NCBI GenBank assembly: GCA_016212095.1
Contig: JACRHH010000020.1
Coordinates: forward strand, 1 to 48,900
Source of the DNA: Nitrospirota bacterium
GTDB lineage: Bacteria > Nitrospirota > Thermodesulfovibrionia > SZUA-242
Direction of reading: 5' to 3'
Length of the DNA stretch: 48,900 nucleotides
Made by a program: the position numbers and the translations under genes. Shown piece by piece: positions 17,732-48,900 of the stretch. Every line of letters begins with the position of its first letter. The stretch's first letter is position 1. A model generated the notes under the pieces. It was not told the origin of the DNA. It saw nothing but the letters and a program-made list of their open reading frames with translations, and made no database searches.

Positions 17732-18670
17732 CTAAAACAGTCCGGCGAGGCTGAACACAAACGCGGTGTTGCGCGACGGATCGGAGCCTGATGCGCCGAA
17801 ATGATCCCAGACCGGGAACCGGATGCCCGCCTGAACGCCCAGCTTTTCCGTATGCATGTATTTGCCGCCGATTGTCATGTCGAGCGTTTTAAAATCGTCG
17901 CCCGCGCCGTTGCCGGAATACTCGCTTTCCCAAGCCACAAGACCGGAGGCGTGTACGTATCCGGCAAGTTTGCCCGCCATGTAGCTGTGCTCAACGCCTG
18001 CAAGCCAGGTAAAGACATCGCCCGCGCGGTAGTCAACGCCGTTTTGCCTGCCCTCGGTGTTGTAGCGGTAGCTGACGTTTCCAAGCAGGCGGAAGCGGTC
18101 GATGGTCTTTGCCGCAGCCTGATTTATCACGAAATCGTAGCTGCCGGAGCCAAGAGGCATCGAAACGCCGTTGTCGGTCTTGTCCTTGTCGCCGGTCGGC
18201 AGCTTGACTGTCAGGCCGCTCAGGAACAACATCTCCTTCCGTCCGTAAATGTACTGGCCTGTAACCGATACGTCTCCGAGGCCGGATGCGCTGTATTTGG
18301 TTCCGAAGATCTCCAGGGAACGGTTTATGTACGGAACGTTCAGCTTGAGCTTGATGTCGTCGGTTACGGCATAGCTTAGCGGAATGTCTATCTGTGTGTA
18401 GTTCTTTGAAAAAACACCGCTCATCCCGACGCCGGACGCGCCTGCCGCCGTGTCCGGCACAACTGGCGCAATGTCGGCTGTCGATGTCTGGCTCTGCGTG
18501 ATCGAATCGTTAGCGTAAGTTTTGTTCTCTACCGAGCCGCTTCCGCTCGTTTGTTCGGAATACGGCAGATCGTAATACGGCATGGTTGACGCCGCATCAG
18601 AGGGCTGAACCGATGCTCCGGTCATGGACAACAGCGTCGCTATTGCGATAATCGCAAGTTTTCGCACCAT
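17732..18670 (-). CDS. Outer-membrane beta-barrel protein (phenol-degradation MetA/transporter-like)
   Basis: A 312-residue protein with a signal peptide (KLAIIAIATLLSMTGASVQPSDA) and alternating polar/hydrophobic strands through to a C-terminal Phe (FVFSLAGLF), as expected for an outer-membrane barrel. Segments such as IPLSYAVTDDIKLKLNVPYI, GLGDVSVTGQYIYG and LSGLTVKLPTGDKDK resemble the MetA-pathway/putative-outer-membrane-transporter barrels. The ATG at 18670 is preferred over TTG at 18673 because a GGAG site lies 9 nt before it. It follows the Cys-rich lipoprotein gene by 24 nt and is likely co-expressed with it. Substrate unknown. Confidence 0.75.
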   Translation of the reverse strand: MVRKLAIIAIATLLSMTGASVQPSDAASTMPYYDLPYSEQTSGSGSVENKTYANDSITQSQTSTADIAPVVPDTAAGASGVGMSGVFSKNYTQIDIPLSYAVTDDIKLKLNVPYINRSLEIFGTKYSASGLGDVSVTGQYIYGRKEMLFLSGLTVKLPTGDKDKTDNGVSMPLGSGSYDFVINQAAAKTIDRFRLLGNVSYRYNTEGRQNGVDYRAGDVFTWLAGVEHSYMAGKLAGYVHASGLVAWESEYSGNGAGDDFKTLDMTIGGKYMHTEKLGVQAGIRFPVWDHFGASGSDPSRNTAFVFSLAGLF

Positions 18671-18694
18671 CAAAATGACTCCTGCTTGTAAATT

Positions 18695-19135
18695 TTACTT
18701 CGCCTGATGCAGCGGCATGCCGCATTTGCACGTACCGGGCTTGTCAGACACCGTGTTGCACAGGCACGATCCGCCACAGTTGCAGAAATAAAGCCCTGAT
18801 CCCTTCAGATTGATGCGCTTGACCGGCTTGCCGCAGCCGCATTTCGTGGGATCGTTCGGATCGAGCGCGCATGTGCAGTCAGGGCCGCATACGCAAACCA
18901 GAGCTTCGTCGCCTTCAACCTTCACAACATGGCCGCCGGCCATATCCTTGCCGCAGGCGCATTTGCCGGGTTCCTTGCTCACCTTGTCGCACTTGCAGTC
19001 CGGGCCGCAGGCGCAAAAGTAGATGGCGTCGCGCTTTTCGGCAGGATGTTGGCAAGTGTGCATGCTGGCGCAGGAAGAAAGGAAAGAGAGGGATACGACA
19101 ATAAGTACGGAGAGAGCCAGATTCAATCGATTCAT
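18695..19135 (-). CDS. Cysteine-rich triple-repeat lipoprotein, metallothionein-like
   Basis: A 146-residue protein with a lipoprotein signal peptide (lipobox LSSC, about residues 19-22), so it should be lipid-anchored in the envelope. The mature part contains three tandem cysteine modules, each CxCGxxxCxC followed about 10 residues later by CxCG: FCACGPDCKC...KCACGK, VCVCGPDCTC...KCGCGK and FCNCGGSCLC...TCKCGM. That is 18 cysteines in repeats plus the lipobox Cys and one in HTCQHP. Such clustered CxC motifs suggest binding of soft metals (Cu, Zn, Cd) or clusters. GGAGG precedes the ATG, and the start overlaps the stop of the small upstream gene. I do not recognise a named family. Confidence 0.8.
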   Translation of the reverse strand: MNRLNLALSVLIVVSLSFLSSCASMHTCQHPAEKRDAIYFCACGPDCKCDKVSKEPGKCACGKDMAGGHVVKVEGDEALVCVCGPDCTCALDPNDPTKCGCGKPVKRINLKGSGLYFCNCGGSCLCNTVSDKPGTCKCGMPLHQAK

Positions 19136-19320
19136 GTTGATAGCCTCCTGTAATGAAATAGTTCGCTGGAATACCGGTTAAACGTAATAAAGTCGGGAAA
19201 TGAAATGTGTTCGACAGTTGTTGAAGGCACGATTCCGTGATCAAGCTTATCGGCCTCAACGAGAAGATCGGCGAAAAAATCCTCTTCGGTTTCGATTCTG
19301 ACGTTGACATTTACTTGCAT
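19132..19320 (-). pseudogene. Truncated small regulator/antitoxin-like remnant
   Basis: A 62-codon reading frame beginning MQVNVNVRIETEEDFFADLLVEADKLDHG...EHISFPDFITF. The N-terminal half resembles the start of small archaeal/bacterial antitoxin-type regulators (I..etEe.ff.....a..ldrG.....lsF....), which normally continue into a winged-helix domain. Here the protein stops at ...FHYRRLST, inside the ribosome binding site of the next gene. It is either a shortened remnant or a very small partner of the upstream gene. The evidence is weak. Confidence 0.35.
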
Positions 19321-19352: not shown

Positions 19353-19607
19353 TCACTGTTCCCAATCGCGTGTCCACTCATCGCGCAACGAGCGTTGCCA
19401 AGCCACCGGATCGGCTACTGTTTTGAATGCGTCTATCTTCCCCGCAAGACTCATAAGCATGTTGGCCTGGTTTGCGGACGTCGCGTCTTCCATTAGCTCC
19501 GGCAGTAACACGATCACCCGTGCCCTGCGTCCAAACGCCTCCCGAAATGCCTCCGGGAGTTTACCGTCTGATGATATTACAGCGTCCTCTTCAATGGCAT
19601 GAAGCAT
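19353..19607 (-). CDS. Antitoxin-like small protein
   Basis: An 84-residue protein (MLHAIEEDAVISSDGKLPEAFREAFGRRARVIVLLPE...) ending in an acidic Trp-rich tail (WQRSLRDEWTRDWEQ). The first 40 residues have the beta-hairpin pattern of AbrB/SpoVT-like antitoxins (DG.LPEAFREAFGR.ARVIVLLPE). GGAGG precedes the ATG. A cognate toxin would be expected just downstream, but only the truncated 62-codon frame is there, followed by the Cys-rich lipoprotein. It may be an orphan antitoxin. Function is inferred. Confidence 0.55.
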   Translation of the reverse strand: MLHAIEEDAVISSDGKLPEAFREAFGRRARVIVLLPELMEDATSANQANMLMSLAGKIDAFKTVADPVAWQRSLRDEWTRDWEQ

Positions 19608-42429: not shown

Positions 42430-45400
42430 ATGGGGCTATCTGTCCGGATGCACAGGTTTTTGTTTCTGGCCGCCTTGATCTGCGGCTGTCTTAACGCAAT
42501 TCTCGGTTCAACCGTATCCGCAACTGATTCATCGCACGGCATTCCGTCGGAAACGTGGGGTTCGAACTACGGCAATACCGGATACTCATCCGTAACCGGC
42601 ATGGTTACGGACAGCGCGGGCAATACCATTTTTACCGGGCTAATAATGCCTGCCGGTACGTCTCCCGTTGATTATTCGACGGTGAAGTACGGTGAGTCAG
42701 GCGGATTATCGTGGGTTCGCAACTTCAGCGAGCCTATGGATATGGGCAACAATCTCAGATTTGATGCGCCTGAACTGTCGGAGGATATCGCCGCCGACAG
42801 AGCAGGGAATGTAATTGTAACCGGCTACAGATACAAGTTTAGCGACTCGGAATGCGTAACCATCAAATACTCGCCGGAAGGGGCTGTCCGCTGGATTCGA
42901 AAATACGACACCGCAACGTATGATTTCTGCTCCGTGATCGCGTCGGACGATGATGGAAACATTTATGTCGGGGTTGATTCGCCGGGTCTTGCCGACACGG
43001 CGCGCATAATCAAATATGATATAAACGGAAACACTGTTTTCGTTGTTCCAAACGTACCCGGTAATCCTGTCTCGTATATATTCGATTTGGCGGTCGATGC
43101 AGCCGGCAACATTTATGCGCTGGCGCATAAGCAATCCGATACCAAGACATATCTGCTTGTCAAATGGAACGCATCAGGAAGCATTGCCTGGCTGAAACCA
43201 TATTTCACGGGATCCCTCTGCGGCTCTAGTCTTGCCGTCAGTTCGAACGGAATCTTTGTGAGTTCCGGTGTCTGCGGCGCATCAGATAATAAAGCAATTA
43301 AAACGACAAAGTACGATACGCAGGGAAATGAAATCTGGACATATAATTACAGCGGAGATGGTGGCGCCTACTCACTCGCAAATATTTCAGGTATCGCAAC
43401 CGATAGCGGTGGCTCTGTTTACATAAATGGCGGCTTAGTCAACACCGCCGCCAGCCGGTTAATCACACTCAAAATTGATGGCGAAGGCGGATTGGCATGG
43501 GAGAAATGGCACGGGGATGGATTTGCACCCTACAAAATAACTGTTGACGGAACCAATCATCTGTATCTGGGCGGCAGGGTGGTGAACGTATCAACGATCG
43601 GCTTTCAGATCAGGAAGTACGATCAGCAACAGTCATCCACGATCGATTTACAGGCCGGAACAATTACGGCAAGTCTGGCCGGAAGCCAAATCCATATCGC
43701 CGATTCCGTCTCCAACGCGGGCAACACATCCGCCACAGGCGTTACGGTTCACTACTATCTATCAACCGATGCCGGCGATGCCGGCATTACCACCGCCGAC
43801 ATCTTGCTCGGTGTGCGCACAATAGATGCGATCAGCGCCGGAAGTTCGAGTGCCGGAGATGTAACCTTCAGCATTCCAGCCGGGTTGGCCGGTGGCCGTT
43901 ACCACATCGGCATGATAGTCGATCCGTTAAATACCGTAACGGAATCGGACGAGGGTAATAATTCTGCCATCGGCAATGAACTTGTGCTGCCGTTTCCGGC
44001 CCCGATTGCGGTAGTAATTTCATCTCCGGCGCAGGGATCGTGCATGAATTCCCGTGCCGTCACGGTTTCCGGAACGGTTGGAAACGCAATTGCACCGGCT
44101 GTCTCTGCCGCCGGGGTTTCGGCGATGGTGTCCGGCAATGCGTTTTCTGTTGCCGATGTCGCGCTTGTCGAGGGCGCAAACGTGATAACTGTTGCGGCAA
44201 CGGATGCGCCCGGTAATTCCGGTTCGGCGTCCGTGGCGCTGACGGTTGACACCGTTTCCCCGGCGGTCACCGGATTTACCGTCATGGCCGATCCGAAACT
44301 GACGCTGTTGATCCCGCTGAAAATAGGTTTCAGCGAGGCTCCGGATATGGCCACGATTCCGCCGAATATTTTCATAACCGGCAAAAGCGGCGATGTGGCG
44401 GGCGCGTTCAGTCTTTCCGGCAATGATGTTCTGTTTATGCCGTCAGCCGAATTTAGGCCGAACGAAACCTACACTGTTACAGTGAATAACGGTGTCAAGG
44501 ATTTATGCGGCAATAGTCTCGCCACCGTGTTCGCCGGCAGTTTTGAGACGCGGATCGGCCCGGCGTTCGTTCATGGCGAGGTGTATGACGACGCCACCGG
44601 CCTTCCGCTGGCCGGAGCCGTGATACGGATGACCAGTATAGACGGCGATGCGCCTGATCCGGCGATCGAAACGACAACCGACATCATGGGCCGGTACGGC
44701 TTTGAGTACAACGCCGGTTCCGGCGACGCGCATATTGTAATCGGCAGGGATGGCTACACCAGCGCATACAGAAACGCGGCGGTCTGGCCGGGCCGCTCCT
44801 TCGAGGTTTTTGACGCGCGGCTTACTCCCGTTGCTTCGCCTGCCTCAATCACGGTGCTTGGTCAGCAGGGTTTGGCGGGCCGCCTGCCTTCCGGCTGGTC
44901 GCCGGTTTATGCGGTCGATGTCCGGTCAAGCGGTTCGACGCTGGCTTTGCCGGGAACGCTATTAATCAAAAATACATACGGTTTCAGCGGAGCAGGAAGT
45001 GTTGTCGCCGCACGGTTCGACGAAGAAACATCGAAGTGGATTGCGTCCGATATTTCCTTCGAGGGTGAAAATATCGCAATCGGCGTAAACGCAGCCGGCC
45101 AGTACGCGCTTCTTGTTGCCGACACCGCGCCGTCAGTTCCGCCGATGCCCGCCGGTGTTGGTGCGCCGATTCTCCCTGCAGCAACGGCGAACCCGGATAC
45201 CGGCAATGCTGTGGTTGAGGTTACACCTCCAGCAGTGTTTTCGGCTATCGGCGCGCGCGGTCTGACGTCGGTGGTTGTTACCACGCCGACGCCGATTCCG
45301 TCGGGAACAGCGGTTCGCGCGCGGATAACCGAAAAGTACGATCTTTCAAGCGGCGAGACGGTTTCGAAGGAGCCGTTCGATCAGGATATTGTGCTCTACG

Positions 45401-48400
45401 CATGGCCAATTGACGGCAGCGACAACACGCTTTCCGCCGGTTTTCCGGTTACGCCGTCCGAAACATATCCGCTTGGAACGCTTCGCCATGGAAGCGTGGA
45501 GATCGATGTTGCGCTTGCGCCGCAGGACGCGTCCGCCGGAAACGTTATCGGCGTTGCGGGCGGGATTGTCACGGGCGAAACCGGCAACGTCGGCTTGACG
45601 ATTGCGGCATCTGCGCTTTTGGGCGATACGTCATTTACATTGAATGCGCTTGCCGCGCCCGATCTGCCGCCGATTGATTCGAGCGCGCCGGATTTCATCG
45701 GCGGCATCGATCTTCGTATGCGTGGAAACGGTTTCGCGCCCGATGCAGTTCCGGAATTCACACTTCCGGGAGCGCTGCCGGCAGATTCCGATGTGATAAT
45801 GACCCGCGCCGGCATGATCAGCGGCATACCGGCGCAGACAGTAGCGGCTGTGGGGAAAATCTCCGGCGGGCGTGTTGCGATTACCCGCTGCCTTTCATCG
45901 CCATGCATCGCTGACGGACGCTACGGGTTTTATGTTTCGCCCGGCCAGCTTGCTTTCATATCCGGGCAGGTTTTTAAATCAGGCGCGCCAGCATCAGGCG
46001 TCGAACTCCGCTCTCAGAGCCTTCCGTTCCGGTACATTTCCGACATCGGCGGCGGGTTTACGGTTGTCGCGCTTGCCGGATCATACGCCGTGTCTGCAAT
46101 CGAGCGCGGCACGGGTTTGGAGTCAGCCTCAAGCGGAAGCGTATCAGCCGGAGAAACGGCGTTGGCAACGCTGAACCTTGCGGTAAATCCGCCGGTGGTT
46201 GCATCGGTTACTCCGTTTGACAAGGCTACCGGCGTGGATGCGTCTGCGCGGATAGAGATTCTGTTTTCGAAGCCGGTGAATCCGTCAACCGTCACGAACG
46301 CTTCCATAAGCCTGTACCAATCGGTTCCCGGCCTCGCCATTCCGCCTGTTTTGGTTGCCGGGCGGGCGTCGCTGGTATCCGGTACGCGTGCCGTCTTCAC
46401 GCCGGAATCTGCGCTGAGGGCCAATGCCATCTACCGGCTTCGCGTTTCAAGCGCAATTACGGACAGTTACGGCACGCCGCTTTCTCCCGTTGAAACCGTC
46501 TTCACCACCGCCGTGGTGCTGGGCAATGCTGCGCTTGAAGCCGGGCAGCTTCGCGCGGGCCTGCCGGATGAAAGCGGCATGATGGCGATAAGCGGCGGAC
46601 GCGGGCTTGCGGCTCCGGGAAGCCCGGTGGTTCTGTTTAACCGGACGCGGAACATCGTGGTTACGGTGACGACAGACGAGGACGGCAGTTTTACAGGCAC
46701 ACTCGCCGGGGCGATTGGCGATAAGGTGGACGTTTATGTTGAAGACCTTCTTGGCAACGTAACGGTTCTTGATCCGGGCATTTTTCAGAACCCCGACGGC
46801 AGCGCGGCTGTCGGGCCGGAGGGCGGAGTGATGCAGGGGCCGGGCGAGATAGAGACATATGTGCCGGGCGGCGCGTTTGATGAGGCCATGGTGATAAAGG
46901 TATCCGCCGCCGCAGCGGATCTGCTTGAGGAGCTGACGGCTGATCCGGCGGTGCAATCCGTAGGCGCTTTTCAGATAGACACTTCAGGCGTTCGGGCGAA
47001 GGAGGAGCTTAAGATATCGCTTCCCGCGCCCGACTGGGTAACGCCCGACGATCAGATAATCATTACGAAAGTTGTAAACTTCCGTGGCCGCGACGAGCTT
47101 ACGCTTGTCTGCCCGGCGGTTTTGCGCGACGGGCGGATATATTCGACCTCGCCGCCGTTTGACGGCGTGTACGACGGCGGATATTACGGAGTTCAGGTTC
47201 ATCTTGAAGACGGCGTTGGCTATGCGATGGTAGACGCGTGGGTGGTGGACGAGCTACGCACATGGATAGCTGGCAAGGCCGGGCTGACCTTTCCGGTATA
47301 CAAGGAAGTCCGCCGTCGGTTTCCGGTAACGGTTCCTGTGAACAAGCCGTTTAACGTGACGCTTCGCGGCCTCGACGGCACGGAGCTGAGGACGGTGTCG
47401 ATACAGGGGCCGACTGAGCGCGGGCAGATGCTTCCGTTTGTGGTTCATCTGACCAACGACCACACGCCGCCCAAGCCTGTAAAGCGCTCGATTCCGGACG
47501 ATGCTGTCGGCATTCTGCCGTGGGGCGACGAGTATTCGATAACGTTTGACGAGCCGATTGCGCCGGAAAGCGTAAACAGCGAGACGGTTAAGGTGACGGA
47601 CAGCCAGGGCAATGCGGTTGTGGGCGTTGCGCGTCTGTCGGGCGACGGGCGCGAGATTGTGTTTGTGCCCGCATACGGCTACCGGTACGGCGAGACGTAC
47701 ACGATTGCGATAAACGGCGTGAAGGATAATGGCGGCAACGAGCTAACCGGCACAACCGGGCGTTTCACCACGTTCAAGCCTGAGGTTTTATCCTCTGTCG
47801 GCTCGTTTCCTGAGGCAGCGCGTCTTGTGAAGTTTAATGACAGGGTTGCGGTCATGGGCCATACTCGCTACGGCTCATTTGTGCTGACAAACTCTTACCT
47901 GAGTTTGGTAGACGTATCAGACCCGTACAATCCGCGCAATCTGGGCGTGGGGCAGGTGACCGAAACGTCTGACGCGGATGCGCGTGGAAAACTTCTCTTG
48001 CAATATGCAAACGACATCAAGGCGGTGGAGAACCTGCCTCTTACGGGCATAAATAACGCTGATTTATCAGGCGATTACATCGTTACCGCCGGATACACGC
48101 AGTGGAACTACAATGGCCGAACGCATCGCGGGCGGCTGGGCTACATCAAGTCCGGCCAGCTTTCGAATCCGGATTCGCTGGTCAACGACGACCTGTATCT
48201 GTCGTGGAATCCGGGCAACGACGATCCACCTCCTCCGGGCGCGCCATACCACCGTGGCGAGCCGATGGAGATGACGATCTACGGAACCAACGCGTACATC
48301 GCCAACTCCGGTCTTGGCGTGCAGGCGGTCGATCTTACGCAGATGGCCGGAAACAAGGCCGGCGCGATAGGCGGCACGTATAGCGGCAGCGGCACGACGG

Positions 48401-48900
48401 CGGAGAATCTGTACAACTCCATCTCCCGCGCCGGCGATAAAATACTGGCTGTTCGCGGCGACGAGCTTGTGATACTCGGCACGGATCTGCGCCCGCTTGG
48501 CAGCTTTGCCGGGCTGAATCATGCCTACGGCGTAACTGGCGTTGAGAAATATCCGATTGACATCGACGGCGACGGGAACCTGGGCGATTACGAGGATTGG
48601 GACGGCGACGCAACAACCTCGGCTCAGGAGTCGTTCGACCTTGCGCTTGTTTCAACGAGCGACGGCGTGGTGGTGATAGACGTAACCGAGCCGGGAGCGG
48701 CCAACAAACTCGACCTGATAGGCAACGCTCGCGGCAGGGTGAAGGCGGACAGGGAAAAACGCGTTGGCTACGCAAACGGCGGCGCGGTGATCTTCAGCCT
48801 GCGGCACTTGCGCGCGGGGCTGGATGTATCGGCGTTAGACACCGCCGAAGACCGGGTGCTGTACCGCAGTTCCGAGCCGGGCGGCGCGTTCGACATAAGC
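42430..48900 (+). CDS. Giant secreted multidomain protein, 3' partial
   Basis: One frame stays open from ATG 42430 to the window end: at least 2157 residues, no stop. The start has a GGAGGGGG site and a signal peptide (FLFLAALICGCLNAILGSTVSA). Domains: SBBP-like beta-propeller repeats (about 40-395; AGNTIFTG, AGNVIVTG, GNIYVG); a CARDB domain (about 405-517); an Ig-like module (about 530-605); a SbsA-type Big_5 domain (about 610-710); a carboxypeptidase-regulatory-like module (about 715-800); further Big_5 domains at about 1256-1360 and 1685-1782; and LVIVD-type repeats near the end (YLSLVDVSDPYNPRNLG; GVVVIDVTEP), with a calcium-loop-like DIDGDGNLGDYEDWDGD near 2040. It is probably a cell-surface or released adhesin-like protein. 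Function and full length are unknown. Confidence 0.88.
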   Translation, partial: MGLSVRMHRFLFLAALICGCLNAILGSTVSATDSSHGIPSETWGSNYGNTGYSSVTGMVTDSAGNTIFTGLIMPAGTSPVDYSTVKYGESGGLSWVRNFSEPMDMGNNLRFDAPELSEDIAADRAGNVIVTGYRYKFSDSECVTIKYSPEGAVRWIRKYDTATYDFCSVIASDDDGNIYVGVDSPGLADTARIIKYDINGNTVFVVPNVPGNPVSYIFDLAVDAAGNIYALAHKQSDTKTYLLVKWNASGSIAWLKPYFTGSLCGSSLAVSSNGIFVSSGVCGASDNKAIKTTKYDTQGNEIWTYNYSGDGGAYSLANISGIATDSGGSVYINGGLVNTAASRLITLKIDGEGGLAWEKWHGDGFAPYKITVDGTNHLYLGGRVVNVSTIGFQIRKYDQQQSSTIDLQAGTITASLAGSQIHIADSVSNAGNTSATGVTVHYYLSTDAGDAGITTADILLGVRTIDAISAGSSSAGDVTFSIPAGLAGGRYHIGMIVDPLNTVTESDEGNNSAIGNELVLPFPAPIAVVISSPAQGSCMNSRAVTVSGTVGNAIAPAVSAAGVSAMVSGNAFSVADVALVEGANVITVAATDAPGNSGSASVALTVDTVSPAVTGFTVMADPKLTLLIPLKIGFSEAPDMATIPPNIFITGKSGDVAGAFSLSGNDVLFMPSAEFRPNETYTVTVNNGVKDLCGNSLATVFAGSFETRIGPAFVHGEVYDDATGLPLAGAVIRMTSIDGDAPDPAIETTTDIMGRYGFEYNAGSGDAHIVIGRDGYTSAYRNAAVWPGRSFEVFDARLTPVASPASITVLGQQGLAGRLPSGWSPVYAVDVRSSGSTLALPGTLLIKNTYGFSGAGSVVAARFDEETSKWIASDISFEGENIAIGVNAAGQYALLVADTAPSVPPMPAGVGAPILPAATANPDTGNAVVEVTPPAVFSAIGARGLTSVVVTTPTPIPSGTAVRARITEKYDLSSGETVSKEPFDQDIVLYAWPIDGSDNTLSAGFPVTPSETYPLGTLRHGSVEIDVALAPQDASAGNVIGVAGGIVTGETGNVGLTIAASALLGDTSFTLNALAAPDLPPIDSSAPDFIGGIDLRMRGNGFAPDAVPEFTLPGALPADSDVIMTRAGMISGIPAQTVAAVGKISGGRVAITRCLSSPCIADGRYGFYVSPGQLAFISGQVFKSGAPASGVELRSQSLPFRYISDIGGGFTVVALAGSYAVSAIERGTGLESASSGSVSAGETALATLNLAVNPPVVASVTPFDKATGVDASARIEILFSKPVNPSTVTNASISLYQSVPGLAIPPVLVAGRASLVSGTRAVFTPESALRANAIYRLRVSSAITDSYGTPLSPVETVFTTAVVLGNAALEAGQLRAGLPDESGMMAISGGRGLAAPGSPVVLFNRTRNIVVTVTTDEDGSFTGTLAGAIGDKVDVYVEDLLGNVTVLDPGIFQNPDGSAAVGPEGGVMQGPGEIETYVPGGAFDEAMVIKVSAAAADLLEELTADPAVQSVGAFQIDTSGVRAKEELKISLPAPDWVTPDDQIIITKVVNFRGRDELTLVCPAVLRDGRIYSTSPPFDGVYDGGYYGVQVHLEDGVGYAMVDAWVVDELRTWIAGKAGLTFPVYKEVRRRFPVTVPVNKPFNVTLRGLDGTELRTVSIQGPTERGQMLPFVVHLTNDHTPPKPVKRSIPDDAVGILPWGDEYSITFDEPIAPESVNSETVKVTDSQGNAVVGVARLSGDGREIVFVPAYGYRYGETYTIAINGVKDNGGNELTGTTGRFTTFKPEVLSSVGSFPEAARLVKFNDRVAVMGHTRYGSFVLTNSYLSLVDVSDPYNPRNLGVGQVTETSDADARGKLLLQYANDIKAVENLPLTGINNADLSGDYIVTAGYTQWNYNGRTHRGRLGYIKSGQLSNPDSLVNDDLYLSWNPGNDDPPPPGAPYHRGEPMEMTIYGTNAYIANSGLGVQAVDLTQMAGNKAGAIGGTYSGSGTTAENLYNSISRAGDKILAVRGDELVILGTDLRPLGSFAGLNHAYGVTGVEKYPIDIDGDGNLGDYEDWDGDATTSAQESFDLALVSTSDGVVVIDVTEPGAANKLDLIGNARGRVKADREKRVGYANGGAVIFSLRHLRAGLDVSALDTAEDRVLYRSSEPGGAFDIS

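Follow-up and report, generated by a model that had tools for sequence, protein, structure and literature searches.

The cysteine-rich protein encoded on the minus strand at positions 18695-19135 of the analysed window, a stretch of 48,900 nucleotides from a Nitrospirota bacterium, belongs to an unnamed bacterial family of small secreted proteins. There is in our estimate about an even chance that these are extracytoplasmic metal-thiolate proteins whose modules bind a soft metal, most likely Cu(I), and which buffer or store periplasmic copper in exchange with NosL-type carriers. The bacterial metallothioneins described so far are mostly regarded as cytosolic, and to our knowledge exported copper stores are few (Csp1). 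What makes the family, known here from sequence and models, interesting is its conservation, export and modular build together with its linkage to copper genes; as an all-cysteine family with NosL neighbours it is a candidate buffer of periplasmic Cu(I) in the little-cultivated Nitrospirota, which, if true, would assign a role to genes that lack annotation.

The three-module protein, defined by its open reading frame with translation and by its homologues, has 146 amino acids and is preceded by an AGGAGG ribosome site. Residues 1-22 (19070-19135, minus strand) form a lipoprotein signal peptide ending in the lipobox LSSC with Cys22. The protein holds 20 cysteines, of which 18 are in the modules (C41/43/47/49/59/61, C81/83/87/89/99/101 and C118/120/124/126/136/138) and the other two are the lipobox Cys22 and Cys28. 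Module 1, YFCACGPDCKCDKVSKEPGKCACGKDM, spans residues 39-65 (18941-19021), module 2, LVCVCGPDCTCALDPNDPTKCGCGKPV, residues 79-105 (18821-18901) and module 3, YFCNCGGSCLCNTVSDKPGTCKCGMPL, residues 116-142 (18710-18790), all on the minus strand, and the cysteine spacing is identical in all three. The lipobox and the 18 cysteines in three regular repeats were thus as originally predicted, and so was the CxC-type repeat itself, with two residues and not three following CxCG; the exact motif is CxCG-x2-CxC-x9-CxCG, that is CxCx3CxC-x9-CxC in which the first and the last CxC are each followed by G. Shuffling the mature sequence 200,000 times gave a single exact module in 126 cases, as against the three observed, and nine CxC were counted in the lipoprotein versus at most two in any other window frame of at least 100 amino acids, so that the three-module pattern is far beyond chance. 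Conservation across homologues is, as judged from the alignment, a stronger proof of the modules than the shuffles. Across 30 three-module sequences that share 40-55% identity with the window protein, 17 of the 18 module cysteines were invariant, namely C41, C43, C47, C59 and C61 of module 1 and all six of both module 2 and module 3, and C49 was nearly so, in agreement with the expectation that the cysteines would be conserved among homologues.

No sigma-54 site was found in a search upstream of the gene. Directly upstream on the same strand lie two small open reading frames, at 19132-19320 (62 aa) and 19353-19607 (84 aa), both minus and both lacking a Pfam match. The 62-aa frame shares 4 nt with the start of the lipoprotein gene, and the small upstream frames and the lipoprotein may therefore be co-translated; the 84-aa frame looked antitoxin-like by eye. 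At the far end of the window, a very long open reading frame of at least 2157 aa (42430-48900, plus strand), which runs off the window and carries repeated Ig-like or beta-propeller-type segments, probably encodes a large surface protein.

The window genome has one copy of the cysteine-module gene, and a family gene was present in 6 of 61 genomes comprising its own and relatives. By profile search, homologues were found in 36 of 396 Nitrospirota genomes, several members occurring in some of them (four loci in genome G053), and a scan of the collection gave single loci outside Nitrospirota in one Thermoanaerobaculales, one Syntrophobacteraceae and one Verrucomicrobia genome. A search for plasmid homologues found none. 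One two-module member with a NosL neighbour (L020) comes from Nitrospirae bacterium isolate MnB_6 Mn-Nitrospirae-1. The family has two architectures, with three modules (18 module cysteines) or two (12 module cysteines), which form separate branches in the tree; the window sequence sits within the three-module branch, its placement there not being settled. Every aligned member starts with a hydrophobic signal-like stretch. The lipobox pattern was clearly fitted by the window member only, locus L083 being ambiguous and the other aligned members having ordinary signal-like N-termini, and hence export is a trait of the family and lipidation is not.

Two-module proteins read DLKVGDEVYACNCG..CxCG..MVKAKVMKVEGDKAMLKAxxWEKERAFKTTGKYxC.., which has the look of a small SH3-like strand core into which one module has been inserted near the start, with a second one appended. 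In the three-module form the extra module (DPTKCGCGK type), corresponding to module 2 and missing from the two-module branch, follows IEGDEALL. The AlphaFold2 model of the window protein, made with nine relatives, had a mean pLDDT of 77, and the modules were well ordered at mostly 80-91. Strands were predicted at residues 37-40, 66-74, 77-81 and 104-109, that at 66-74 (18914-18940, minus strand) with a pLDDT of about 90 and a putative part of the SH3-like core, and the sole helix was the signal peptide. A fold search with the model gave no significant match, the weak ones including Tudor, KOW and SH3 domains, and sequence searches for relatives of solved structure gave none, only TUM1 at E 0.6-0.95. 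Model and sequences together suggest that an SH3-like strand core, to which the fold matches are weak, carries the modules.

The main rival to the copper-thiolate reading is structural zinc, where each module would fold round one or two Zn(II) in the manner of a zinc knuckle and the protein would serve in the periplasm as a stable scaffold or an interaction protein, with no part in storage or detoxification. We consider this unlikely, for the order of the modelled modules and the resemblance of the module tail to HMBD, a zinc-ribbon-like domain, have to be set against six thiolates per module, more than the four of a classical zinc knuckle, and against the copper genes that recur as neighbours. 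Highly improbable is a structural or redox protein held together by periplasmic disulfides with no metal at all: it would agree with export and with the even number of module cysteines, but the three CxC pairs per module suit thiolate hooks better than local disulfides, and it accounts poorly for the copper chaperone neighbours and the HMBD-like tail. The recurrence of the same module in the separate two-module branch was counted in favour of the metal-thiolate reading.

It is the recurrent neighbours of the relatives that, by gene context, point to copper. The commonest informative neighbour was NosL, at eight loci and in most of them directly upstream on the same strand; it is directly upstream in many two-module loci and flanks the three-module gene of locus L068 on both sides. 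NosL lay within about 1 kb of the family gene in nine of 18 genomes (G053, G057, G238, G277, G294, G297, G332, G354 and G389) with just one to six NosL matches per genome, a count which does not represent independent events since the 18 genomes were chosen and not random and some of the arrangements are syntenic copies. CopC and CopD were found near one locus (L101). Two NosL domains per chain are present in several NosL proteins that adjoin two-module genes (L092, L094, L096, L099, L102 and L103). At the window locus there was no adjacent copper gene, the single NosL of the genome being on another contig, and most three-module members had no copper gene alongside.

All-cysteine chemistry suits Zn, Cd or Hg equally well, and the proteins could be pictured as a general soft-metal sponge (Cd, Hg, Ag, As) at the cell envelope, serving detoxification and not specific for copper. 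The patchy distribution over 36 of the 396 genomes and the presence of several members in some of them would fit such a sponge, as would ligands that are all cysteine; its neighbours, however, are copper chaperones and CopC/CopD, and no mercury or arsenic gene recurred among the neighbour clusters, which makes it quite improbable.

In two loci of different phyla, L068:6149-10819 and L019:4753-8378, the family gene occurs together with a LolCE/MacB-type permease, an ATPase and one more membrane protein, and the former locus also holds two NosL genes. A more far-reaching proposal, which we put forward tentatively and as a minority expectation, is that the family represents an exported poly-copper-thiolate class with a multinuclear Cu(I)-thiolate cluster per module on the SH3-like core, and that together with NosL and the LolCE/MacB-type ABC set it would make up an undescribed route of periplasmic copper storage and delivery in Nitrospirota and a few other phyla.

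The downstream gene encodes a barrel-like protein of 312-313 aa (17732-18670, minus strand; open reading frame 17732-18673). As predicted originally, it lies 24 nt beyond the lipoprotein stop codon on the same strand, with its ATG at 18670, an AGGAG of its own and no terminator-like site between, and it is a probable operon neighbour; that it is a beta-barrel is a likelihood taken from distant homologues. Its single-sequence AlphaFold model had a pLDDT of 33, no Pfam match was obtained, including none to Phenol_MetA_deg (PF13557) at E up to 1, and NCBIfam gave a weak FapF match (E 0.025). Homologues at locus L146 matched Phenol_MetA_deg with E 4.2e-13 and 3.6e-16. Barrel homologues (E up to 1e-8) occurred in nine of the 396 genomes, the window's own among them.

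That lipoprotein and barrel constitute a two-part system for metal export or import, as first proposed from the short gap and the shared strand, is very unlikely. Two distant barrel homologues do adjoin metal-type periplasmic proteins: at L023 (1-2289, minus strand, G053) the homologue precedes a YtkA-like protein and an exported cysteine-rich protein, and at L146 one is beside an HMA protein. But a comparison of about 50 neighbourhoods showed no barrel homologue beside any other cysteine-module gene, an outcome that the original prediction had named as speaking against the pairing, and the most closely related barrels occur with CsgG proteins, the nearest adjoining a CsgG gene, and others with other genes. 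The barrel was therefore rejected as a conserved partner on these neighbourhoods and the contexts of its homologues. In view of the two distant homologues a role of the window barrel in metal handling is possible, but the linkage gives no sign of one. The barrel is probably a local operon neighbour of unproven relevance outside the conserved system, and the tempting pairing is a local one. The L023 cysteine-rich protein itself is of another cysteine-rich architecture, combining repeats of CGCGKDCQCDHC-type motifs with a YtkA-like part at the C-terminus.

In the proposed copper-thiolate function, the Sec-type lipoprotein signal would anchor the window protein to the membrane, probably the outer membrane since the residue after Cys22 is Ala and not Asp. 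The small SH3-like strand core would display the three six-cysteine modules, and each module, made up of a CxCx3CxC hook and a further CxC, would act as a thiolate site for soft metal ions, Cu(I) being the most likely. Periplasmic copper could in this way be buffered or stored and, where carriers such as NosL are present, exchanged with them. The original prediction had allowed for either soft-metal or cluster binding at the envelope; judged from the sequences, a soft-metal thiolate is the most economical reading. Sec-exported chains travel unfolded and are a poor fit for an Fe-S site, and with signal peptides that look Sec-type, and hence a chain presumably exported unfolded, an Fe-S cluster is unlikely.

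The profile libraries name no such family, as searched with Pfam and NCBIfam for the window protein and the two-module set and with Pfam for the three-module set, and in the literature no paper describing the family was found, a search for the CopY-type CxCx4CxC motif also giving nothing. A close likeness was to HMBD (PF19335) of CusB-type efflux proteins and P-type ATPases, which shares the tail [VI]SxxPGxC-xCGxxL and an extracytoplasmic or metal-system setting. By hhalign the module tail, as in module 3, showed a significant similarity to HMBD, with a probability of 86% and a score of 22.9; when the columns were shuffled 200 times with the cysteines fixed, the maximum was 13.4. HMBD was weakly matched by eight of 30 members (best E 4.8e-4); for the window protein no match was listed even at E 10, and the gathering score was not reached. 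HMBD starts with CPMHP and has CPxCG, whereas the family module starts with CxCGxxCxC, has CxCG and holds six cysteines; since the head thus differs, the protein was not filed as HMBD, and membership was rejected with scores below the cut-offs and both CPMHP and CPxCG absent. One true HMBD is found in the window's genome (G000:C5:20868-20948) within an open frame of 450 aa that may encode a CusB-type efflux protein.

ExtJ (NF040942) of the Geobacter selenite/tellurite clusters shares with the family a signal peptide and a strand segment of SH3-like type (E 1.6e-4). The two-module relative L092 scored 21.7 bits against a cut-off of 52.5, the window genome had no ExtJ match at E 0.001, and ExtJ-type homologues are without CxC modules; this membership was also rejected.

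NosL, a lipoprotein that takes part in CuZ assembly and binds a single Cu(I) (PMC7558416), is unrelated in sequence and is a neighbour and not a homologue, the likeness being the periplasmic Cu(I) handling proposed for the cysteine-module protein. Csp1-type copper storage proteins are likewise exported, rich in cysteines and proposed to store copper; Csp1 carries a Tat signal and folds as a four-helix bundle (PMC7558416), whereas the window protein has predicted strands in place of a cysteine-lined four-helix bundle, and a Sec-type signal. With bacterial metallothioneins (SmtA/BmtA family, MymT) the family shares cysteine-rich CxC clusters, but the window protein is exported and anchored, longer and built on an apparently ordered strand core, with two or three regular modules in the family. 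Every curated metallothionein cut-off was missed and membership was rejected: Metallothio_PEC gave 9.1 bits for the window protein against a cut-off of 31.8, and the MymT profile showed weak similarity (best E 0.0053), matches that could reflect cysteine richness. A member of neither known family by the tests made, the cysteine-module protein may still function in the manner of a metallothionein or as a store of copper.
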